Below, piece after piece: positions 1,335 through 11,869 of a stretch of 64,000 nucleotides of DNA. Made by a program: the position numbers and the translations under genes. The first letter of the stretch is position 1. Each line of letters starts with the position of its first letter. The DNA is from Myxococcota bacterium (GTDB lineage Bacteria > Myxococcota > B64-G9): NCBI GenBank assembly GCA_022710975.1, contig JAKLGA010000002.1, positions 186,001-250,000 of the forward strand, in the 5' to 3' direction. The notes under the pieces were generated by a model, which saw nothing but the letters and a program-made list of their open reading frames with translations, was not told the DNA's origin and did no database searches.

Positions 1335-1982
1335 ATGGGAACCGCCGTCATCCTGATCCTGCTCGCCCTGGTCTCGTCCGGGTTGATCCTGGCCACCTCC
1401 GCCCGCCCGCAGGGGGGCGCGCCGGCCACGCTGGCCCAGGCCGCGCCGGAGGCGAGGCCGCCCGCGCCCGCGGCGACGAGGCCGCTCAGCCGGGACGAGG
1501 TGGCCGCCCGCCTGAGGGCGCTGGCCGCGAGCGAGCCGCCCAAGAACCTCGAGATGGGCGCCATGTGCTACGACATGGCCGGCCCGCCCCCGACCGCGGA
1601 CTACGTCTGCCCGAAGTGCGGCCAGCGCACCCAGTACAGCCGCGAGGGCGGCCTGACCATGCTGCTGACCTACGAGCTCCAGGGCATGCGCGCGCAGGTC
1701 AAGAGCCTCAAGGGCCTGGATGCCACCCTGGACGAGTCCGAGCTGTGCCGGAAGTGCAGCCCGAGCGTGCAGACGCCCGAGCTGGTGCTGCGGGTGCGCT
1801 ACACGGAGCCCTCCGGCGGCAAGTTCGAGGAGCACCGGGTGCGGGGCGTGCGCCCGCGGGATCTCACCCTGCTCCAGGAGTTCCTCGGCGGCACGCCCAA
1901 GCACACGGGTGAGCAGGGCCGGGAGTCCCCCCTCAGGGACCACCTGCCGCGCATCCGCGAGCTGCTCGGGGTGAAGGACTAG
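1335..1982 (+). CDS. CY-CP-CxxC family protein 1 (membrane-anchored, unrecognised domain)
   Basis: The protein has 215 residues. The ATG at 1335 follows a GGGGAGGA ribosome site at 1322-1329. The N-terminus (residues 3-21) is a single membrane segment, followed by an Ala/Pro linker to about residue 50 and then the domain repeated in this region. Conserved points are Cys78-Tyr, Cys92-Pro (with an extra Cys95, CPKCG), Leu-Asp-Glu before Cys138-x2-Cys141, and the C-terminal PLRDHLPRIRELLG block. No charge precedes the membrane segment and Arg follows it, which suggests that the cysteine domain faces the cytosol (inference). The four invariant cysteines suggest a metal site, probably zinc. I do not recognise the family. 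The gene ends in an odd direct duplication of its last 12 bases. Confidence 0.8.
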   Translation: MGTAVILILLALVSSGLILATSARPQGGAPATLAQAAPEARPPAPAATRPLSRDEVAARLRALAASEPPKNLEMGAMCYDMAGPPPTADYVCPKCGQRTQYSREGGLTMLLTYELQGMRAQVKSLKGLDATLDESELCRKCSPSVQTPELVLRVRYTEPSGGKFEEHRVRGVRPRDLTLLQEFLGGTPKHTGEQGRESPLRDHLPRIRELLGVKD

Positions 1983-1997
1983 TGGTGAAGGACTAGG
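1971..1997 (+). repeat. Direct duplication across a stop codon
   Basis: The string GTGAAGGACTAG occurs twice, separated by two bases. The first copy encodes the last residues and stop of family protein 1, and the second is the spacer before family protein 2. It looks like a recent slippage duplication that left the frame unaffected. Confidence 0.7.
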
Positions 1998-2012
1998 GGG
2001 CGAGCTCGAGCC

Positions 2013-2534
2013 ATGCAGCCACCCGATTCTCCCGATGCGCCCCGCTTCGCCCCGCCCCTCTCCGGCGCCCCCTCGCGCGAGGAGCTCCGCGCGCGCCTCC
2101 GGGCGCTCGCCCTGAGCGAACCGCCGCGGGAGCTCGCCGTGGGCGCGTGCTGCTACGAGGTGGCCTCGAACGACGAGACCGAGGATCACCTCTGCCCGAC
2201 CTGCGGCGCGCGCACCACCTACCCACGCTTCACGGTGGAGTTCGTGCGCGAGGCCCGCGCCCGGCTGCGCGAGGTGCGCGGGCTCCGGGTGGAGCTCGAC
2301 GAGCGCGGCTTCTGCGGGCGCTGCTCGCGCGGGGAGCCCGACCGCCGGCTGGACCTCGTGCTCCACCTCCCGGGCGAGACCGCGCCGCGCCGGGTGGCCG
2401 ACGTGCAACCCAGGGACCTCGTCCTCCTGGCGGAGTTCCTCTCGGGCCTGGCCAAGCACCGGGACGGCCACGACGAGAGCCCGCTCAAGGACCACCTGCC
2501 CCGCCTCAGGCAGCTCCTCGGGCTAGAGCCCTGA
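2013..2534 (+). CDS. CY-CP-CxxC family protein 2 (soluble form)
   Basis: This 173-residue member has no membrane segment; the N-terminus is a short Pro-rich leader. It keeps the family frame: Cys47-Tyr, Cys61-Pro with Cys64 (CPTCG), Cys101-x2-Cys104, and the C-terminal SPLKDHLPRLRQLLG block. An additional Cys46 precedes the first conserved cysteine. It starts 30 bp after family protein 1 and is probably translated from the same message. As the only copy without an anchor, it indicates that the domain can work in the cytosol. No function is known. A hairpin repeat follows about 40 bp after the stop. Confidence 0.78.
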   Translation: MQPPDSPDAPRFAPPLSGAPSREELRARLRALALSEPPRELAVGACCYEVASNDETEDHLCPTCGARTTYPRFTVEFVREARARLREVRGLRVELDERGFCGRCSRGEPDRRLDLVLHLPGETAPRRVADVQPRDLVLLAEFLSGLAKHRDGHDESPLKDHLPRLRQLLGLEP

Positions 2535-2571
2535 CTCGGCCTGGCTCAGCCCCGACACCCAGGCGAGGCAA

Positions 2572-2650
2572 TCATCGAGGGTGGCGTGGAGAGGCTGTTC
2601 ACAGGGCCTCCGGCGGGCAACTGGCGCCGGTAGGACCGTCCTTCGTATCC
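2572..2650 (+). repeat. Hairpin intergenic repeat, copy A
   Basis: This element starts with a GAGGGTG core at 2577-2583 and continues with GTGGAGAGGC, a loop, and GGGCCTCCGGCGGGC. The arms GAGGC (2591-2595) and GCCTC (2606-2610) can pair. Copies B (6901) and C (9034) align over about 80 bases. It lies just 3' of family protein 2. It may be a REP-like or termination element; no T-run follows the hairpin. Confidence 0.6.
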
Positions 2651-2694
2651 CCTGGGATGGGGAGCCTGGCACCAGCATGATCGCACCCGCATGA

Positions 2695-2723
2695 TTGACC
2701 CACCTTCGGTGCGCCGCTACCAT
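2695..2723 (+). promoter_or_regulatory. Predicted housekeeping promoter for the lipoprotein at 2759
   Basis: A TTGACC -35 box (2695-2700) and a TACCAT -10 box (2718-2723) are separated by exactly 17 bases. This predicts a leader of about 29 nt for the gene at 2759. Confidence 0.5.
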
Positions 2724-2758
2724 GGTCCGCGGACTCCCCACCTCGGCGGCGGTGACGC

Positions 2759-3730
2759 ATGGCCCGTGGTCGGCCGACCCTGTCCCTGCTCCTGCCCCTC
2801 GCCCTGGCCGCCTGGTCCGGGTGCGCGCGGGAGGCTCGCCTCCCCGACGGTTACTTCCCGATGCCGGGGATCGAGCCCGAGACCACCCACGAGCACGCCC
2901 TCCCGCCGCAGACCCTCGGCCTCCTGGTGGCCACCTCCGGCGAGGGGCTGGACGCCGCGCGGCTTCACGGGCTCGCGCGCGACTGGCTCGTCCAGCGCTC
3001 CCACCGGGTACGCGACGAGGAGTACCTCCTGGCCGAGCGGAGCCTCCGCATCTGCCTGGAGGCGGCGAAGGGCCCGCTGAGCTCGGGCCGCCGGCACTAC
3101 GACAACCTGGAGCTCGTGGAGGCCCGGCTGGACCTGGAGCTCGCCGCCGCGGCCCTCGAGCCTTGTCTGCCATGGATCCAGCGGCTCGAGGCGGCGGAGC
3201 CCTGGTGGGAGGTGCACCTCTACCTGGCCCTCATCCGGCACCTGGAGGGCAAGCCCGCCGACGCCGCCCTGCTCGTCCAGCGGATGCTCCCCTTCGGCGA
3301 CGCGAGGCGCTATGTCGCGCAGAGGAGAGACGTCACGAGCAAAGCGTTCCTGGACCTCTTCGACGCCGCGTGCTCCCGGGGCGGTGACCGGCCGATCGAC
3401 ACCCCGGCGGACCCGCAGGGGCACCTGGTCCTCTCGACGCCCGAGAGCGGCGGGGAGTCCAACCTCCGGGCGGCGCTCGCCGGAGCCGAGGGGGTGGGTG
3501 GGCTGGTCGAGGTCGGTGACCAGGCGGCCCGCGCCTGGGAGGTCCAGCGCGTGGTGCTCGTCCGGCTCGCCCGCGCGCGCGACCGGATCGAGCTGGAGAC
3601 CTGCCTCTACGACCACGCGCGCCACGCCTGCCAGGGCCACGCGGTGCGGCCCGTGGACCCCGCCGCGCAGGGCCTCGAGGAGGCGCTGATCCAGTCCTTG
3701 AGGGACGGGCTGTCCTCGCCGGGCGACTGA
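2759..3730 (+). CDS. Predicted lipoprotein of unknown function
   Basis: This 323-residue protein starts with a lipoprotein signal (MARGRPTLSLLLPLALAAW) ending in a lipobox with Cys at about residue 22. The mature part is mostly helical and charged, with long Leu/Glu/Arg-rich stretches at about residues 60-200 that could form a TPR-like or alpha-solenoid fold. I find no catalytic motif. It has its own predicted promoter and sits between family proteins 1/2 and the radical SAM gene on the same strand, so it may be the envelope component of this cluster (inference from position only). Confidence 0.7.
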   Translation: MARGRPTLSLLLPLALAAWSGCAREARLPDGYFPMPGIEPETTHEHALPPQTLGLLVATSGEGLDAARLHGLARDWLVQRSHRVRDEEYLLAERSLRICLEAAKGPLSSGRRHYDNLELVEARLDLELAAAALEPCLPWIQRLEAAEPWWEVHLYLALIRHLEGKPADAALLVQRMLPFGDARRYVAQRRDVTSKAFLDLFDAACSRGGDRPIDTPADPQGHLVLSTPESGGESNLRAALAGAEGVGGLVEVGDQAARAWEVQRVVLVRLARARDRIELETCLYDHARHACQGHAVRPVDPAAQGLEEALIQSLRDGLSSPGD

Positions 3731-3836
3731 CGCCCTTCCAACAAAGTCGCTGGCACCAGGAGGGGGGGGCGATAGCCTGGCACCTGGGGAAGGGCGCGGG
3801 CTTGACCCGCGGGGCCGGCCAGGGGAGAACTGGCCC

Positions 3837-4925
3837 ATGAGCGAGAAGGTCCAGAGCAGGCTCGCCGCCTCCTTCCTGCCAGCCACGGCCGTGCTGGAGA
3901 TGACCTACGCCTGCAACCACCGCTGCCTGTTCTGCTCCTGCCCGTGGTACGCGGAGGGCAACGGCTTCGACCAGCGGCCCGAGCTCGAACTGCCGTCCTG
4001 GAAGCGCATCCTCGAGAAGCTCTGCCGCATGGGGGTCGTCGACCTCGCCTTCACCGGCGGCGAGCCCCTGCTCAAGCAGGGCCTCGAGGAGCTCATCGTC
4101 CACGCCGCCGGCCTCGAGGCGGAGCACGTGCGCACCCAGGACGGCGGCCTGGTGGTGGAGCCCGGCCCGCCTCACCTCTTCCTGCTCACCAACGGCAGGA
4201 TCCTGAGCGAGCGGGTGCTCGAGCTGTGCGCCCGCCACCGCGTCCACCTGGGCATGAGCCTGCCGGGCGTGACGTCCTTCACCGACCACACCCGGGCGAG
4301 CGACGCCGCCCACGTGCTCGGCTGGTTCAGGCGGGCAAAGGCCCTGGGCATCGAGACCCACGTGGGCATCACCGTGACCCGCCTGAACCTCCACGAGCTC
4401 TACGAGACCATGGGCGAGGCGCTGCTGGCGGGCGCGGACAGCGTGCTGCTGAACCGCTTCATGCCCGGCGGGCGGGGGCTGGCCCACGCCCGGGAGCTCG
4501 CGCTCGACGCGGACGGGGTGCGCCAGATGCTGTCCACGGCCGAGGAGGTCCTGCGGCTGGCCAACCGCCGGGGCAACGTGGGCACCGAGCTGCCGCGCTG
4601 CCTGTTCGACCCGGCGGCGCACACCCACCTCGACGTGGGCAGCCAGTGCGCGGCCGCGACCGGGTTCTTCTGCATCGACCCCTCCGGCTACGTGCGGGTG
4701 TGCAACCACTCGCCGGTGCGCCTCGAGCACTTCGACGCGATCGAGGCGGTCAAGGACAACCCGTACTGGCGGCGCTTCGTGCAGAAGGACTACCTGCCCA
4801 GGGCCTGCGCCGGCTGCCGCGAGATCGGCCGCTGCGACGCGGGCTGCCGCGAGGCGGCGCACATCGCGTGCGGGGCCGTGGACGCGCTCGATCCGCTGCT
4901 GCCGTCGGTGACCCCGCTCAAATAG
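3837..4925 (+). CDS. Radical SAM/SPASM-type enzyme
   Basis: This 362-residue enzyme has the radical SAM cluster motif CNHRCLFC (Cys26, Cys30, Cys33), followed by another cysteine at 35. It also has the glycine-rich SAM-binding element FTGGEPLL near residue 74. The C-terminal part is SPASM-like: a cysteine region around residues 270-285 (FFCIDPSGYVRVC), then CAGCREIGRCDAGC near residue 325. It could therefore hold auxiliary 4Fe-4S clusters, as in peptide-modifying and cofactor-maturing enzymes such as the PqqE and AnSME types. The substrate is unknown. No obvious short RiPP precursor lies next to it; the nearest repeated proteins are the CY-CP-CxxC paralogues on both sides. A GGGGAG at 3822-3827 can act as ribosome site. 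Confidence 0.85.
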   Translation: MSEKVQSRLAASFLPATAVLEMTYACNHRCLFCSCPWYAEGNGFDQRPELELPSWKRILEKLCRMGVVDLAFTGGEPLLKQGLEELIVHAAGLEAEHVRTQDGGLVVEPGPPHLFLLTNGRILSERVLELCARHRVHLGMSLPGVTSFTDHTRASDAAHVLGWFRRAKALGIETHVGITVTRLNLHELYETMGEALLAGADSVLLNRFMPGGRGLAHARELALDADGVRQMLSTAEEVLRLANRRGNVGTELPRCLFDPAAHTHLDVGSQCAAATGFFCIDPSGYVRVCNHSPVRLEHFDAIEAVKDNPYWRRFVQKDYLPRACAGCREIGRCDAGCREAAHIACGAVDALDPLLPSVTPLK

Positions 4926-5005
4926 ACCTCTTGCCGATCACCCCTTCCCCTTTCCCTCTTCACCCTCTAAGATGCCCTTGTTCTCTCATGTTTCCCGGAG
5001 GCTCC

Positions 5006-6175
5006 ATGTACTACCTGGTGATCGGCCTGGTGCTGGTGCTCTCGCTCGGGGTGTTCGCCTTCGCCGGCGGCTGGCTCAAGGCGAAGCCCGGCCCGGCCGA
5101 GGATCGACCGGCGGGGCTCGCGGCGCCCGTGCGGCTCGCGGCCGGGCCGTCCACCCGGGCCGAGGTGCAGGAGAAGCTCAAGCGCCTGGCCGACAGCCCG
5201 GCCCCACCGGTCAAGCTCCAGGGGGCCATGTGCTACGAGCCGCGGGCCATCCTCGACCGGACCGAGTACATCTGCCCCAAGGACGGCGCGCGCACGCTGT
5301 ACACCAACGAGCACGGCCAGGCCGAGGTCGCCGCGCAGATCCAGTACATGCGGGAGGGCATCAAGCTGCTCAAGGGGCTGGACGTCTCCCTCGACGAGCA
5401 CGAGTTCTGCAAGAAGTGCAACCCCGGCCTCGATCCCAGCGGGCTCTCCCCCAAGGGCCCGGCCCTGGTGCTTGTGGTGCGCTACCCGGACGCCAGGACC
5501 GGCAAGGTCGAGGAGCACCGGGTGCGCGGGGTGACCTCGAGCGACCTCCAGCTCATCCAGGAGCTCCTGTCCGGCAGCCTCGAGCACGGGCTCGAGGGTC
5601 CGGATACGGGCCCGCTCAAGGACCACCTGGCCCGCCTCCAGGAGCTGCTAGGGACGAGGCTCGCCGCCTACACCCGGGCCGAGCTCCAGGCGCGCCTCCA
5701 GGCGCTCGCGGACACCGAGCCCCCCAAGACCCTGGCCACGGGCGCGGAGTGCTACAAGCCCTCCATGCCGCCCACGACCGCGGACTACGTCTGCCCGAAG
5801 GACGGCTCGCGCACCCAGTACAAGGTGGGCGGCCCGGGCAGCGAGAACCTGGTGCACCTCGTGAGCCGGGCGCTGCCCGCGTTGCGGCGGATGGTCGCGG
5901 ACATCCCGGGCCTCCAGGTGAGCCTCGACGAGTCCGAGCTGTGCAGGAAGTGCAACCCGGGGGCCAAGGATCCCGCGGCCGTGCTGGTGATCATGCTCCC
6001 GGGCGAGAAGGCCGCGCGGCGGGTGCGCGGGGTGACCGAGGACGACCTGCGCCTGCTGCGCGAGCTCGCCACGGGCGCGCTCGCGCACAAGGACGCGCAG
6101 GACGGTGAGACCCCGCTCAAGGACCACCTGCCCAGGATCCGCGAGCTGCTCGGAATCGAATCCACAGCAAAGTGA
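5006..6175 (+). CDS. CY-CP-CxxC family protein 3 (two tandem domains)
   Basis: The protein has 389 residues and starts at the ATG at 5006 behind CCCGGAGG; an in-frame ATG at 4988 has no such site. Residues 3-21 form a membrane anchor. Domain one has Cys76-Tyr, Cys90-Pro and Cys135-x2-Cys138, and ends in PLKDHLARLQELLG near residue 216. Domain two begins immediately with Cys249-Tyr, Cys263-Pro and Cys313-x2-Cys316, and ends with PLKDHLPRIRELLG. In both domains the second cysteine of the CPKC seen in proteins 1 and 2 is Asp (CPKDG), so only four cysteines per domain are invariant. This is an in-frame fusion of two family units. The first 11 residues are identical to those of family protein 4 except for the eleventh, which points to recent duplication. 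Confidence 0.8.
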   Translation: MYYLVIGLVLVLSLGVFAFAGGWLKAKPGPAEDRPAGLAAPVRLAAGPSTRAEVQEKLKRLADSPAPPVKLQGAMCYEPRAILDRTEYICPKDGARTLYTNEHGQAEVAAQIQYMREGIKLLKGLDVSLDEHEFCKKCNPGLDPSGLSPKGPALVLVVRYPDARTGKVEEHRVRGVTSSDLQLIQELLSGSLEHGLEGPDTGPLKDHLARLQELLGTRLAAYTRAELQARLQALADTEPPKTLATGAECYKPSMPPTTADYVCPKDGSRTQYKVGGPGSENLVHLVSRALPALRRMVADIPGLQVSLDESELCRKCNPGAKDPAAVLVIMLPGEKAARRVRGVTEDDLRLLRELATGALAHKDAQDGETPLKDHLPRIRELLGIESTAK

Positions 6176-6205
6176 CAGGACAGACCAGATCCTGGCGGAG
6201 GCCCC

Positions 6206-6874
6206 ATGTACTACCTGGTGATCGGCCTGGTGCTCGCGCTCGGTGTCGGGGTGGTCGCGCTCTCGGGAGGCTGGCTCAAGACCCGGGCCGGCTCTGCGCC
6301 CGAGCGCACCGCGGTCCAGGAGGCCCCCCTGAGGCTCGCGGCCGGTCCGCTCTCGCGCACGGAGCTCGAGCAGCGCCTGACCCGGCTGGCCGAGACCCCG
6401 CCGCCCGAGACCCTGTCCACGGGCGCGAAGTGCTACAAGCCGGCCATGCCACCCAAGACCGCGGACTACGTGTGCCCCAAGGACGGCTCGCGCACGCAGT
6501 ACAGCCTGGAGGCCGAGGACGGCCACAGCATGATCAAGCTCCTCCAGTTCCAGCTCCCCGCCATGCGCCGGATGCTCTCCGAGGTGGTGGGGCTGGAGGC
6601 TCGGCTGGACGAGTCCGAGTTCTGCAAGAAGTGCAACCCCGGGCGGAAGGACCCCCAGCTCGTGCTCGTGGTCACGCTCCCCGGAGACAAGCCCGGGCAG
6701 CGGAAGGAGCACCGGGTGCGCGGGCTGGGCTTCGAGGACGTCAAGCTGCTCCAGGAGCTGTTCGCAGGCAAGCTCGCCCACGAGGGCGACTACGGCCGCG
6801 AGACCCCGCTCAAGGACCACCTGCCGAGGCTCAGGGAGCTGCTCGGCTTCGAACCCCAGGCGAAGCAGCTCTGA
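6206..6874 (+). CDS. CY-CP-CxxC family protein 4 (membrane-anchored)
   Basis: This 222-residue protein starts 30 bp after family protein 3, with nearly the same start context (GGAGGC then CCATGTACTACC). It has an N-terminal anchor (residues 3-20) followed by Lys/Arg, then Cys76-Tyr, Cys90-Pro, Cys140-x2-Cys143 and the terminal PLKDHLPRLRELLG. The spacing from the first to the second cysteine is 14, as in every copy. It most resembles domain two of protein 3 (KCYKPAMPP, DYVCPKDGSRTQY). Proteins 3 and 4 probably form one transcript. Its function is unknown. Confidence 0.8.
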   Translation: MYYLVIGLVLALGVGVVALSGGWLKTRAGSAPERTAVQEAPLRLAAGPLSRTELEQRLTRLAETPPPETLSTGAKCYKPAMPPKTADYVCPKDGSRTQYSLEAEDGHSMIKLLQFQLPAMRRMLSEVVGLEARLDESEFCKKCNPGRKDPQLVLVVTLPGDKPGQRKEHRVRGLGFEDVKLLQELFAGKLAHEGDYGRETPLKDHLPRLRELLGFEPQAKQL

Positions 6875-6892
6875 ACCAATAGAGTAAAGACA

Positions 6893-7068
6893 AGGAGATT
6901 TCTTTGAGGGTGTGTGGCCGGAGGTGTCCATGGGCCTCCGGCGCGCGATTGCTGTGGTGTGACCGTCCACTGACTTCAGGCTGCTCACTCTCGGCGGCCA
7001 CGCAGGAAGCGCAGGAAAATCCATGAAGGAGGTCCCCTCCTTCTTCACCCTCAATGAATCCTCTTCCT
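6893..7068. repeat. Hairpin repeat copy B with inverted GAGGGTG core at the far end
   Basis: On the plus strand GAGGGTG lies at 6906-6912, followed by a perfect 8-bp hairpin: GCCGGAGG (6917-6924) pairs with CCTCCGGC (6935-6942). At the other end the same core occurs inverted (CACCCTC, 7046-7052) inside AATGAATCCTC. A second hairpin with 8-bp arms and a 3-nt loop lies at 7025-7043 (GAAGGAGG/CCTCCTTC). The block fills most of the gap between convergent genes. The inverted ends recall a MITE, but no target duplication is obvious. Confidence 0.55.
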
Positions 7069-7117
7069 GTTCCTGATTTGCTGGATTGGCTGGATTGGTG
7101 GCATGGGCCGTGCTGGC

Positions 7118-7435
7118 TCAGGTCTTCCGGGTGTGCGCCAGGTGGTGGACCAGGTGCCCCAGGCCGAAGCCGACCAGGGCCACCACGAAGGTGAACCACC
7201 AGCCCAGGTGCCAGTGGATCCAGTTCATGACCATGAACGGGGTGATCACGGCGATGGCCACCACCAGCCCGAACGCCCCCAGGCCCGCGCCCGGCCGGCC
7301 CGGCCCGCCCCCCTCGCCGCCCCCGGCGCGCGCCTGCCCGTCCGCGGGCAGCACGGTCGACTGGCGCAGGCAGGTCGGGCAGCGCCCCTCCTCGGCCTCG
7401 AACACCCGGTCGCAGGCGGTGCAGCGGTAGCGCAT
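7118..7435 (-). CDS. Zinc-ribbon membrane protein, small
   Basis: This 105-residue protein begins with a compact zinc ribbon (Cys5-x2-Cys8, Cys19-x2-Cys22: CTACDRVFEAEEGRCPTC). A Gly-rich linker and two hydrophobic segments follow (about residues 54-71 and 79-97), with a His-rich end (GHLVHHLAHT). The start at 7435 is the first Met before the ribbon. Longer upstream frames overlap the methyltransferase and are discarded. It lies 11 bp downstream of the methyltransferase gene on the same strand. No function can be assigned; several clustered histidines near the second membrane segment might bind metal. Confidence 0.75.
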   Translation of the reverse strand: MRYRCTACDRVFEAEEGRCPTCLRQSTVLPADGQARAGGGEGGGPGRPGAGLGAFGLVVAIAVITPFMVMNWIHWHLGWWFTFVVALVGFGLGHLVHHLAHTRKT

Positions 7436-7446
7436 GGGGCCTCCCC

Positions 7447-8259
7447 TCAGGGCTTGCGGGCGTGGAACAGGCAGGCCCCCGGCGCCACCCCGGCGCGGGC
7501 GAGCAGCTCCGGCGCGAGCAGCTCGCGGGCGCGCACCGTCCGCACCTGGAAGCCCGCCGCGGCGATGCGCTGGCCGTAGTCCTCGCCGCACCGCCGCACG
7601 TGCCCGGGGTGGCCGTGCAGCCGCCGGCGCGCCTCGGGCGTGGTGGCGGCGGGATCCGCCCGGGTCGGGCCGGGGGACAGCGGCACCGCCAGCATGGCCC
7701 AGCCGCCGGGCGCGAGCACCCGCAGGAGCTCGGCCAGGGCCTGACGATCGTCCTCCACGTGCTCGAGCACGTGGGAGCAGAGCAGCGCGTCGAACTGGCC
7801 CGCGGAGAACGGGAGCGAGGTGATGTCCGCCCTCAGCTCGGCCCAGGGGCAGTCGAGGTCCGCGCTCACGTAGCGCAGGCCCGGCAGGCGCCGCAGCCGG
7901 GGCACGAAGCAGCGCTCGGGGGCCAGGTGCAGCAGGCGCTTCGGGCGGCCGTCGAACAGATCGCTCGCGCGCTCCAGGAACAGCCAGGCCAGGCGGTGGC
8001 GCTCCCGCGCGCCGCACACCGGGCAGGCGGCCTGGGCCCGGGGCGGATCGCCGGCGGGGCGGAAGCGGTCGAGCTCGCTCCGGCACACCGGGCACTGGCA
8101 GCCCTGGCCCCGCGCCAGCGGCCGGCGCAGGCCCTCGAGCAGCTCCCCGCGCTCGACCGCGGCCCGCACCAGGGGCCGGGGCGTCCAGCGCCAGACCAGG
8201 CGCCTGGCCAGCGCGCCCGCCCGCCGGGCCAGGAAGTCGCCGAGGCTGTCCGTCTTCAT
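7447..8259 (-). CDS. SAM-dependent methyltransferase with N-terminal zinc-ribbon cysteines
   Basis: This 270-residue protein has paired cysteines at 54/56/59 (CQCPVC) and 79/82 (CPVC), suggesting a zinc ribbon. A class I methyltransferase core follows: LLHLAPE at about 109-115 as motif I (an atypical variant without the GxGxG loop), YVSADL as motif II, FDALLCSHVLEHV (157-169) and LRVLAPGGW (179-187). This arrangement is typical of Methyltransf_11-type enzymes with unknown small-molecule or glycan substrates. It is divergent from family protein 5, with 96 bp between their starts. The start at 8259 was chosen because the upstream frame is antisense to other genes. Confidence 0.75.
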   Translation of the reverse strand: MKTDSLGDFLARRAGALARRLVWRWTPRPLVRAAVERGELLEGLRRPLARGQGCQCPVCRSELDRFRPAGDPPRAQAACPVCGARERHRLAWLFLERASDLFDGRPKRLLHLAPERCFVPRLRRLPGLRYVSADLDCPWAELRADITSLPFSAGQFDALLCSHVLEHVEDDRQALAELLRVLAPGGWAMLAVPLSPGPTRADPAATTPEARRRLHGHPGHVRRCGEDYGQRIAAAGFQVRTVRARELLAPELLARAGVAPGACLFHARKP

Positions 8260-8355
8260 GCGCGGGCATTCTATCCGCGCCGCGCCCGCCGCGCCAGCGC
8301 CCCGGAGGCTTGACGCGGGAGCCCGCTCCGGAGGACAACCAGGTCGGGAGGTCCC

Positions 8356-9027
8356 ATGTACTACGTCATCCTCGGCGGGATCCTGGTGCTGTCCACCCTG
8401 GTGCTCCTGGTGGCCGGTCCGCGGCCGTTCCTGCGCGGCCCCGCCGGGGCCAACTCCCGGCCAGCCAGCCGGGTGGCGGAGACGCCCGCCCCGCGCGCCG
8501 CGGTGGAGCAGAAGCTGAAGGCGCTGGCCGAGACCCCGGCCCCGCCGCCCGACCAGCAGGGGGCCATGTGCTACGCGCCCATGCCCATGCACGACCACGC
8601 CGAGTACGTGTGCCCGCTGGACGGCTCGAAGACCCAGTACCAGTTCGAGGGCGGGCTGGCCGAGCTGGTGGCGGGCGAGCTGCCCGCCCTGCGGGCCCAG
8701 CTCAAGCAGATCCAGGACCTCAAGCCTTCCTTCGAGCTCACGCTCGACGAGCGCGAGCTCTGCCGGAAGTGCAGCCCGAAGGTCGAGAAGCCGGCCATCG
8801 TCCTGGTGGTGCGCTACCCCGACGCCAGGAGCGGCAAGGTGCTCGAGCACCGCACCCGCGGGGTGCGCCGGGTGGACCTGCAGCTCCTCCACGAGTTCCA
8901 GTCGGGCAGCCTGGTGCACCACACGGGCGGGCCGGACACGGTGCCGCTCAAGGACCACCTGCCCAGGATCCGGGAGCTGCTCGGCTTCGACCCGGTCCAG
9001 CCCCCTCCCCCAGCCCCGAAGCCCTGA
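8356..9027 (+). CDS. CY-CP-CxxC family protein 5 (membrane-anchored)
   Basis: This 223-residue protein has an N-terminal anchor (residues 3-20, MYYVILGGIL) and then the family frame: Cys72-Tyr, Cys86-Pro (CPLDG), LDERELCRKC with Cys136 and Cys139, and terminal PLKDHLPRIRELLG, with a Pro-rich tail. The segment VVRYPDARSGKVLEHRTRGV is shared closely with domain one of protein 3. It is the last copy in the window and is separated from the others by two minus-strand genes. A hairpin repeat begins within about 10 bp of its stop. Its function is unknown. Confidence 0.8.
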   Translation: MYYVILGGILVLSTLVLLVAGPRPFLRGPAGANSRPASRVAETPAPRAAVEQKLKALAETPAPPPDQQGAMCYAPMPMHDHAEYVCPLDGSKTQYQFEGGLAELVAGELPALRAQLKQIQDLKPSFELTLDERELCRKCSPKVEKPAIVLVVRYPDARSGKVLEHRTRGVRRVDLQLLHEFQSGSLVHHTGGPDTVPLKDHLPRIRELLGFDPVQPPPPAPKP

Positions 9028-9352: not shown

Positions 9353-9706
9353 TCAGGGCGGCTCGAGCGGGCTGAGCCCCTGAAGGACCAGGTACTGCCT
9401 CGGCATGGCCGCGTTCGGCACGCCCCAGGTGCTGTCCTCGTGGCAGTAGCTCTCGAAGCGCACGAGCTCGGAGCCGATCACCTGGTAGAGGGTGAGGGTG
9501 CTGCGGTCGGCGTTGGGATCGTGCAGCTTCTTCTCGGGCGAGTAGCGCGCCCGGACCTGGCCCGCGGCGTCCAACTCGACGTAGGCGTGGGCCTCGGTCA
9601 GGCCCGGGATGGGCACACCCTCGAACACGACCGGGCTGGCCGCGCCCTCCTCGAGGATCGTGCCGCGCTGGGTGGCCCAGCGCCGCGTGGCGGCGGTCCG
9701 ACTCAT
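9353..9706 (-). CDS. Small hypothetical protein coupled to the cysteine-rich lipoprotein
   Basis: This 117-residue protein has no signal peptide, membrane segment or recognised motif. It contains a predicted beta-rich stretch (residues 25-110) with a single cysteine. Its ATG overlaps the stop of the 616-residue cysteine-rich lipoprotein by four bases (ATGA), which implies translational coupling. The longer frame upstream of 9706 is out of phase with that lipoprotein and should not be used. Its function is unknown. Confidence 0.6.
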   Translation of the reverse strand: MSRTAATRRWATQRGTILEEGAASPVVFEGVPIPGLTEAHAYVELDAAGQVRARYSPEKKLHDPNADRSTLTLYQVIGSELVRFESYCHEDSTWGVPNAAMPRQYLVLQGLSPLEPP

Positions 9707-11553
9707 GGGAAGGGTATGCACATCAAGCCCTGGCACTCCCACTGGTTGGAGAGGTCGCACTCGCAGATCCCGTCCTGATCGCAGTCCTCGAACATCCCGG
9801 CGCACACGCAGGTGTCCCCGGCGCAGAAGCTGCCGTACTCGCAGGTTCGGACACAGGCGCCGCAGTACTGGTCGTTGTTCACCAGATACGTCTCGCAGCC
9901 CGGATCGGGCGTGCAGTCGCCGTAGTCCACGTGGCACACGCAGGCTTGCCCCTCGCAGCCCTGGTGCTCCGAGCAGGCCTCACAGCCGGGCCCGCAGCCG
10001 TTGGCGTTGGTCTCCATGTTGAGGCACACGTCCCCGACCGGGGTACCGACGCAGCAGTAGTTCACCACGGAGCCCTCGCAGTCCAGGTCGGACGCGCCGC
10101 AGCGGCAGCCCTGCCCGTCCACGCAGTGCTCGTGCGCGTCGCAGGCGTCCCCGCAGTCCAGGCAGTCGTCGTCGCTGCCCGCGGCGGTCTCGCAGCCCCG
10201 CTGGCCGTCGCAGTCGAGCCAGCCGCTCTGGCAGACGCACCGTCCGGCGCTGCAGCGCTCGCCCGCGGCGCAGGTTACGCAGCCCGGCCCGCAGTGGTCC
10301 GGGTCGCTGCGCGTGTCCACGCAGCTCGCGCCGCAGCAGAAGTCGGCGTCGTTGCCCGCGCAGTCCGGGCCGGTTCCCCCGCAGCGGCAGGTGCCGTCCA
10401 CGCACTCCTCCCCGCCGTCGCAGGGCGTGCCGCCGCAGGGGCTCGAGAGGCACTGGCCCGCCTGGCAGCCCTCGGGGCAGTCGACCTGCGCCTCGGTGTA
10501 GACGCAGGCGCCGGCCAGGCAGGCGCCGGGCAGGCTCGAGCTGACGAGCGCGCTGCCCTCGCAGCGCGGCCCGGGCGGCGCGTCGCAGGCGAGCGGCGCG
10601 CCCTGGCACAGCCCGTCCGCGCAGGCGTCGGCCTGGCTGCAGGCGTCGCCGTCGTCGCAGCCCGCGAGGCTCGTGCTCCAGGCGAACGCCGGACCCGCGG
10701 GCTCGAGGGCGCACGTCCAGCTCCGCCCGTCGCAGGTCTGCCGGGCGCACTGGCTGGCCGGGCCGCACGTGCCCGCCGGGCACTCCCCGGCCACGCAGGC
10801 GCCCTGCACGCAGCGCTCCCCGGCCGGGCAGCTCACCCCCACGCACGGCCGGTCGAGGCACAGCCCGGCCGAGCACACCTCGTCGTCCAGGCAGTCCTCC
10901 GCGGGGCAGTCCGGCTCGAAGCAGTAGCCGTTCAAGCAGAGCTGGGCGCCGATGCACGCCACGTCCGCGCAGGCGCGGTCCACGCAGGCGTCCTCGAGGC
11001 ACACCTCGTCCGGGCCGGGGCAGCCGCTCCCCCCGCAGTCGGTGGGGAAGCAGTGGCCCTGGGCGCAGCGCTGGCCGGTGGGGCAGCTCACCCCCACGCA
11101 GGTGCGCGGAGTGCAGGCGTCCTCGACGCACACCTCGCCGTAGCCGGAGCACACCCGGGTGGGGCAGTCGATGGGGTAGCAGCTCCCCGCGGCGCAGCGC
11201 TGCCCCGCCGGGCAGTCCTCTTCCAGGCAGTCCCGGGGGATGCACTCGTCGTCCAGGCACACCTCGCCCACGCCCGGGCAGCTCCGGCGCGGGCAGTCCC
11301 GGGCGAAGCAGGCGCCCTGCACGCACTCCTCGCTCGGCTGGCAGGGCGCGGCCGCGCAGGAGAGATCGAAGCAGTCGTCGCGCACGCAGGCGAAGCCCGC
11401 GGGGCAGTCCTGGTTCCAGCAGTCGAGCGGCCAGCAGATGCCGTCCACCAGGGCGCCGTCCTGGCACTCCCCGCCCCCACCGCCCGGGCAGGCCGCCAGC
11501 CCGCCGCCCAGGAGCGCCGCCAGCACCACCAGCACTCCGCCGCCCGCCCGCAT
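9703..11553 (-). CDS. Cysteine-rich repeat lipoprotein, 616 residues
   Basis: The ATG at 11553 has GGAGG eight bases upstream; a GTG two codons earlier is less well placed. The signal sequence (MRAGGGVLVVLAALLGGGLAAC) ends in a lipobox with Cys22. The rest is dense in disulfide-type repeats. About residues 30-235 are tandem units of about 20-25 residues of the form C-P-x-G-x-x-C-x-x-G-x-C-x-x-x-x-C. Longer EGF-like or Dickkopf-like cysteine modules follow, carrying CGxGC and CDG elements. Proteins of this type are common in Myxococcota envelopes and are thought to sit on the cell surface; the role is unknown. It is immediately followed by a coupled 117-residue gene. Confidence 0.75.
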   Translation of the reverse strand: MRAGGGVLVVLAALLGGGLAACPGGGGGECQDGALVDGICWPLDCWNQDCPAGFACVRDDCFDLSCAAAPCQPSEECVQGACFARDCPRRSCPGVGEVCLDDECIPRDCLEEDCPAGQRCAAGSCYPIDCPTRVCSGYGEVCVEDACTPRTCVGVSCPTGQRCAQGHCFPTDCGGSGCPGPDEVCLEDACVDRACADVACIGAQLCLNGYCFEPDCPAEDCLDDEVCSAGLCLDRPCVGVSCPAGERCVQGACVAGECPAGTCGPASQCARQTCDGRSWTCALEPAGPAFAWSTSLAGCDDGDACSQADACADGLCQGAPLACDAPPGPRCEGSALVSSSLPGACLAGACVYTEAQVDCPEGCQAGQCLSSPCGGTPCDGGEECVDGTCRCGGTGPDCAGNDADFCCGASCVDTRSDPDHCGPGCVTCAAGERCSAGRCVCQSGWLDCDGQRGCETAAGSDDDCLDCGDACDAHEHCVDGQGCRCGASDLDCEGSVVNYCCVGTPVGDVCLNMETNANGCGPGCEACSEHQGCEGQACVCHVDYGDCTPDPGCETYLVNNDQYCGACVRTCEYGSFCAGDTCVCAGMFEDCDQDGICECDLSNQWECQGLMCIPFP

Positions 11554-11869
11554 CCTCACCCACCTCCGCGAAGCTCCGGACGTACCGATTCTACACCACC
11601 CCGCAGGAGTCGAACGCGGGAACCAGAGACGAAGGAAACGAAGAAGAGAGGATTTCTATTAGGTGAAGAAAGGGCAAACAGCAGGGAAGCGCGGGCCAGG
11701 CTCCAGGCGGCGCGAAGATGCCTTCCCCGCCTCTATTTCTGCTCCTCCTACCCAACCTTCGATGAATTCCTCTTCCCGGCCTTCCTGCCCTTCCTGCCTC
11801 ACCCTTCAAGAATCCTTCTTCTGCCCTTCCTGCCCCACCCTCAAAGAACTCATTATCTTGTTGTTGTTG
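11554..11869. other. Gene-free stretch with several degenerate GAGGGTG-core repeats
   Basis: No gene is supported in these 316 bases. On the plus strand GGATTTCTATTAGGTGAAG lies near 11644. On the minus strand three related units follow each other: CAACCTT at 11753, CACCCTT at 11800 and CACCCTC at 11836, each followed by AAGAA- or GATGAATTC-like sequence and spaced by CTTCCTGCCC. The plus and minus units face each other, making an imperfect inverted repeat about 230 bp across. Confidence 0.5.

Follow-up and report, generated by a model that had tools for sequence, protein, structure and literature searches.

Six copies of an undescribed cysteine-containing domain beside a radical SAM/SPASM enzyme in a Myxococcota bacterium: candidate substrates of a putative conserved maturase

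The window analysed here is a stretch of 64,000 nucleotides from a Myxococcota bacterium (assembly GCA_022710975.1, contig JAKLGA010000002.1, positions 186,001 to 250,000, forward strand). At positions 1335-9027 it contains five genes that carry six copies of one cysteine-containing domain, as seen by translation of the open reading frames (ORFs) and alignment. Within this cluster, between the domain copies, sits the gene of a radical S-adenosylmethionine (SAM)/SPASM enzyme at 3837-4925, which had been missed in a preliminary description of the region. Domain genes adjoin the same enzyme gene on the same strand in all 16 readable loci, which come from 15 genomes of six or seven phyla. Because the closest functional analogue, the enzyme QhpD, modifies the protein QhpC, we read the domain proteins as substrates: they are probably dedicated to a cytosolic radical SAM/SPASM maturase that modifies them before or at export, much as QhpD does QhpC. 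The genes of the putative system in the window, all on the plus strand, are:

1335..1982, plus strand: cysteine-domain protein 1, 215 amino acids (aa), with an N-terminal hydrophobic anchor and the pattern CY(78)...CPKC(92-95)...CRKC(138-141); its conserved cysteine codons are C78 at 1566-1568, C92 at 1608-1610, C95 at 1617-1619, C138 at 1746-1748 and C141 at 1755-1757
2013..2534, plus strand: cysteine-domain protein 2, 173 aa, without anchor; CCY...CPTC...CGRC
3837..4925, plus strand: radical SAM/SPASM enzyme, 362 aa; CX3CX2C at 3912-3935, SPASM motifs between 4647 and 4847
5006..6175, plus strand: tandem cysteine-domain protein, 389 aa, with anchor; two domains split at about 5680/5681, CPKD in both
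6206..6874, plus strand: cysteine-domain protein, 222 aa, with anchor; CPKD variant
8356..9027, plus strand: cysteine-domain protein, 223 aa, with anchor; CPLD variant

What singles out the domain proteins as substrate candidates is their linkage, proteins of about 40% identity being tied to one conserved enzyme. Searching 84,980 species genomes with the domain gave eleven loci, from Armatimonadota, Bacteroidota, Planctomycetota, Lentisphaerota, Verrucomicrobiota, Thermodesulfobacteriota and a deltaproteobacterium, and an all-versus-all comparison of their ORFs found two recurring gene families, the domain and the radical SAM/SPASM enzyme, with no other gene in common. The 16 readable loci are the window, L020, L022-L030, G020, L080, L076, L077 and L079 (L, G and C numbers are our handles for loci, genomes and contigs). 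The domain gene usually lies directly upstream of the enzyme gene, often with overlapping stop and start codons. Two domains in one protein precede the enzyme in L020, four domain genes precede it in L022, one accompanies it in L023, L025, L026 and L027, two do so in L024 and L029, and L028 has two domain genes, the enzyme and one more domain gene. L030 has one domain gene with the enzyme, another contig of the same genome (L080) has the enzyme followed by two, and the one domain gene of G020 has a frame break. The order in the window is two domain genes, a probable bystander, the enzyme, the tandem gene and one more, with the last copy further downstream. In G098 one copy ends (L021/L084) and another begins (L026) near a contig end, and these may be one tandem array split in assembly.

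The association is also found when starting from the enzyme. A reciprocal enzyme profile search (threshold E 1e-60) recovered it in 12 of 12 domain-carrying genomes checked, as one gene each (two in G106) and always beside a domain gene. An enzyme-seeded search of about 390 Verrucomicrobiota and Lentisphaerota genomes added four more enzymes (G924, G779, G612 and G875), and in G924, G779 and G612 a domain gene stands directly upstream of the enzyme that had been found by itself. The G612 pair is distant: the enzyme matches with E 4e-75, and nothing is conserved in the partner (E 3e-6) but CPKC...CPHC and the C-terminal block. In G875 the contig ends within the enzyme gene, and the same contig encodes a domain protein about 8.5 kb away. 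A single enzyme gene without a partner, in the armatimonadote G1501, is 5'-truncated, has lost its CX3CX2C end and belongs to a genome without the domain; it looks like a decayed remnant, and domain and enzyme seem to have been lost together there. The truncated gene (L088:3754-5434) lies directly behind a Phd/RelE-type toxin-antitoxin pair.

The enzyme is, from its sequence motifs, a member of the radical SAM superfamily and of its SPASM subfamily. It matches the Pfam family Radical_SAM (PF04055) with E 4.2e-19 and 69.8 bits against a cut-off of 29.5, and its CX3CX2C motif is C26-x3-C30-x2-C33. The seven-cysteine SPASM motif is CX9-15GX4C-Xn-CX2CX5CX3C-Xn-C (PMC5715301); the first six cysteines fit this pattern and the seventh is not conserved. 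By motif scan Cx12Gx4C and Cx2Cx5Cx3C occur in 12 of 15 enzymes, the remainder being truncated or distant, and the SPASM model TIGR04085 scores above its cut-off in the L024 enzyme. The window enzyme is 50-59% identical to the aligned copies from other phyla, which reach up to 73% among themselves, and the start SFLPxTxVxEMTYxCNHxCxFCSCPW is invariant. Within it, all aligned members have an additional, invariant cysteine two residues past the cluster motif (giving CX3CX2CxC), at residue 35 of the window enzyme.

In its AlphaFold2 model (mean predicted local distance difference test score, pLDDT, 86.8) the enzyme is nearest to the solved structures of SkfB (E 6e-17), SuiB, CteB and anSME by Foldseek, with SkfB, SuiB and CteB ranging from E 6e-17 to 4e-10; its nearest structural neighbours are thus peptide- or protein-modifying enzymes. 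The nearest NCBIfam models are PqqE (63-102 bits) and the mycofactocin maturase, with curated cut-offs of 381 and 265 bits, and AhbC/AhbD and NirJ are also among them. The enzyme is not an equivalog of PqqE, MftC, PapB or SkfB, all scores lying far under the NCBIfam cut-offs.

The six window copies are homologous over the whole domain, as the preliminary description had proposed: they are 42-51% identical to the first copy, share 36 invariant columns across the domain and give full-length profile matches of E 1e-54 to 1e-101, far beyond chance. The anchors had also been counted correctly, the genes at 1335, 5006, 6206 and 8356 encoding one, that at 2013 encoding none, and 5006 being the tandem fusion. 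The copies had been placed in one cluster, which holds for these six, but the 7.1 Mb source genome, which is of Myxococcota type with relatives in that phylum, contains two more; a profile of the six copies recovers them there along with the two extra copies, one at C25:274673-275314 (E 3e-61) and the other, which is divergent, on C8 (E 4e-19), and none further.

The domain itself is undescribed in Pfam, NCBIfam, PHROGs and the PDB, by sequence and by fold, in keeping with the earlier failure to recognise it. Pfam, NCBIfam and PHROGs gave nothing that passed the cut-offs, either for the window copies or for relatives, PADLOC has no family for it, and the viral, phage and plasmid collections gave no match for the queries tried there, so that these searches give no sign of carriage by mobile elements. 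A PDB profile search returned zinc-finger fragments only (best E 0.0017 over 16 residues), and matches to zinc-ribbon profiles (TFIIB-type, HVO_2753, Nop10) were weak and below cut-offs. The AlphaFold2 model of copy 1, built from 25 aligned sequences, has a pLDDT of 89.0, mostly 86-98 per ten-residue block from residue 51, with strands flanking CPxC on both sides. Foldseek found no PDB match for this model (best E 0.23, template modelling (TM) score about 0.2) and none in the viral library. Matches to porphobilinogen deaminase were rejected at a TM score of about 0.2, and sub-threshold matches to Herpes_US8A, DUF4908 and DUF4148, which cover the anchor or low-complexity part, were rejected as chance. 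A literature search found no description of the domain and radical SAM enzyme as a pair.

Conservation was assessed, in a table and a tree, over 31 family domains. C78, Y79, C92, P93, T99, C138 and C141 are each present in all 31, which confirms the conservation of the four cysteines noted before; C95 had been overlooked, and the cysteine of the CY pair is separate from the likely ligands. C95 is a cysteine in 27 of the 31 and an aspartate in the other four, which are window copies forming one clade (support 99/95), while the 1335 and 2013 copies have CPxC. As a two-knuckle zinc-ribbon test, then, 27 copies have CPxC and CxxC and four have CPxD and CxxC. A middle cysteine, C118, before the conserved arginine (ELxxCR), occurs in 17 of the 31 and in no window copy. 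The fixed spacing of 14 residues between C78 and C92 is found in all six window copies but not in the C8 copy, which has x13 for x12; the last pair, C-x2-C, and the PL(K/R)DHLxR block are in all window copies as described. The core is thus a zinc-ribbon-like CPxC...CxxC plus a separate invariant Cys-Tyr. A metal site is plausible, and the likely ligand candidates are the four positions of CPxC and CxxC, one of them replaced by aspartate in four window copies. The E-x3-Y of CGEKTLY resembles the cross-link site of PqqA, but this parallel was dropped, as the glutamate is not conserved (Q, A and S in the window).

Several features point to the cell envelope as the location of these proteins. Those of L022, L029, L079 and G779 begin with classical signal peptides, and lipobox-like motifs occur in several other members. 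In G875 (L091; C84:6481-6807, minus strand) a domain protein with a signal peptide is fused to SH3_3 and DUF1287 (E 3e-70), fusion partners that we take to indicate the envelope. The L091 protein is without the Cys-Tyr motif, and its gene does not adjoin that of the enzyme. The G779 domain contains a weak SH3-like insert. In the L076 protein (L076:6020-7246), which adjoins the enzyme, a series of DUF4116 repeats is joined to the domain.

The system is rare and patchy, at about 0.3-1.5% of sampled genomes: 1 of 395 in Bacteroidota, 3 of 195 in Myxococcota and 5 of 388, 1 of 392, 2 of 241 and 1 of 257 in other phyla, each count including the seed genome of its sample. Copies cluster largely by host in the tree (the window's four CPxD copies, four of L022, four of G104 and two each of L024 and L029), so the local expansion already noted is real and recurs independently, the domain proteins having multiplied in each host with a single enzyme kept. 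Part of the window's diversity is older, since its copies fall into two tree groups. One enzyme for several separately expanded paralogues fits the relation of an enzyme to its substrates better than that of subunit to subunit.

Several other genes lie in or near the cluster. A putative lipoprotein (2759..3730, plus strand; lipobox LAAWSGC by eye, no family match) is probably a bystander; it and the upstream aminotransferase and SEC-C genes were dropped as parts of the system because they are not common to the other loci. The SEC-C motif protein is small, has a membrane segment and lies at 1019-1303, just 5' of the first copy. The cluster is broken up on the minus strand (7118-8260) by genes, absent from other loci, for a zinc-ribbon membrane protein and a methyltransferase-like product. 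Just downstream of the cluster, at 9703-11559 and also on the minus strand, is a 618-aa, very cysteine-rich, secreted-looking protein with repeated cysteine units.

How the proposed system might work can be outlined by analogy. The substrate would be a small globular domain with a CPxC...CxxC core and the invariant Cys-Tyr, mostly led by a signal peptide, lipobox or anchor, and locally multiplied, with one cytosolic enzyme per genome as a rule. The neighbouring genes, whose adjacency is observed, would be co-expressed. As in its family, the enzyme would then reduce the [4Fe-4S] cluster at CX3CX2C and cleave SAM, and the 5'-deoxyadenosyl radical would abstract a hydrogen atom from one of the domain's conserved residues. 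The SPASM auxiliary clusters may hold a substrate cysteine or accept an electron, giving a cross-link or other oxidative modification, most likely at a cysteine. QhpD cross-links cysteine to aspartate or glutamate by a thioether in QhpC, in the cytoplasm before export (PMC7876137), and the product here might be such a thioether or come from chemistry at the Cys-Tyr pair; the candidate sites are the conserved cysteines, the Cys-Tyr pair and the LDE motif. Judging by the signal peptides, lipoboxes and SH3/DUF1287 fusions, the matured protein would be displayed in the envelope, where paralogues may differ in their partners.

Several points weigh against a substrate role of the domain proteins. 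A zinc-ribbon-like fold is commonplace and requires no modification, and the status of substrate is itself deduced. C95 and C118 are ruled out as obligatory modification sites because both vary, and the Cys-Tyr motif is absent from the most distant partners (L079, L091). Domain copies also occur apart from the enzyme, on C25 and C8 of the source genome and on C40 in G104, with further such copies in L081-L083. Most anchors are a hydrophobic N-terminus without the charged n-region that would indicate their topology, and export is not universal, since neither copy 2013 nor the L076 protein has an anchor. Finally, the enzyme has no recognition element (RRE) of the kind used for ribosomally synthesised and post-translationally modified peptides (RiPPs), because the radical SAM core begins at about residue 20 and leaves no room for one, and no RRE gene was seen beside the enzyme.

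The main rival to the substrate reading makes the domain proteins membrane-bound, metal-binding (zinc or iron) partners of the enzyme, which present an unlinked substrate, deliver electrons or act as a recognition subunit like an RRE or PqqD. CPxC...CxxC is the pattern of zinc ribbon and rubredoxin knuckles, the weak zinc-ribbon matches below cut-offs agree with it, and an enzyme without its own RRE might need such help, as PqqE requires PqqD in trans (PMC8326336). We nevertheless regard it as unlikely: each enzyme has several independently expanded paralogues, signal peptides and SH3/DUF1287 fusions place the domain outside the cytoplasm, apart from the enzyme, and no third gene is common to the loci as the real substrate. 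It is quite improbable that a small molecule or cofactor is the enzyme's product and that the domain proteins bind or carry it in the envelope. SPASM enzymes do act on tetrapyrroles too (AhbC/AhbD and NirJ being among the nearest models), and a cysteine-rich carrier could bind such a product after export, but the loci have no further biosynthetic gene in common and the best structural neighbours are peptide or protein maturases.

A patchy, rare distribution, repeated local expansion and lineage-specific copies would also suit a conflict or competition system in which exported, radical SAM-modified proteins, toxin-like or RiPP-like, act on neighbours and are diversified by selection. However, the loci have no recurrent gene for immunity, a transporter, a protease or leader cleavage, the substrates are globular, about 200 aa long and kept at the membrane, and PADLOC has no family for them; this idea is very unlikely. 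That the proteins are ordinary zinc-ribbon membrane proteins, locally expanded as adaptors or scaffolds, with the radical SAM gene a chance neighbour, is scarcely credible; conserved cysteine pairs and local duplication are compatible with it, but same-strand adjacency in 16 of 16 readable loci from six or seven phyla, recovered by searches with the domain and with the enzyme alike, contradicts it. The diversified adaptors or scaffolds first suggested are accordingly not supported, since an invariant radical SAM/SPASM partner accompanies the domain genes and alters their interpretation.

The substrate reading can be carried further, if tentatively: a new system of radical SAM/SPASM enzyme and protein is possible, in which an unseen cross-link or cofactor (at Cys-Tyr, for example) would form in a new, envelope-displayed globular fold, with one enzyme serving diversified paralogous substrates. 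For most radical SAM/SPASM enzymes no substrate is known. If the reading is true, folded envelope proteins, and not short peptides, join the substrates of this superfamily, one enzyme serves several diversified paralogues and the cross-link chemistry is possibly new.

Known systems resemble the present one only in part. With zinc ribbons the domain shares the CPxCG and CxxC knuckles and sub-threshold profile matches, but it has no significant family match, a fold without PDB match and the extra invariant Cys-Tyr. PqqE, MftC and other SPASM peptide maturases have the CX3CX2C and SPASM cysteine motifs and a similar length, whereas a PqqD-like partner and a short precursor peptide are missing here. 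SkfB, SuiB and CteB, the sactipeptide, streptide and ranthipeptide enzymes, are the best Foldseek matches of the enzyme model, yet they carry an N-terminal RRE domain, absent here, and act on short peptides. The system does not belong to the RiPPs, as the partners are about 175-450 aa long, the enzyme has no RRE and the loci have no other common gene. QhpC is about 110 aa, mostly coil and single-copy, and is encoded with qhpA/B/E/F/G; the present domain has about 200 aa, is globular, comes in 1-6 copies without other qhp-like genes and has no detectable sequence relation to QhpC. What QhpD/QhpC has in common with our pair is a dedicated radical SAM/SPASM enzyme near a cysteine-rich protein rather than a short peptide, a protein bound for the envelope in the case of QhpC and probably so here, QhpD acting in the cytoplasm (PMC7876137). 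The genes of our pair stand side by side in 16 of 16 loci; some members bear signs of export (signal peptides, lipobox-like motifs, the SH3_3/DUF1287 fusion), while two have no anchor and the anchors of many give no clear topology.

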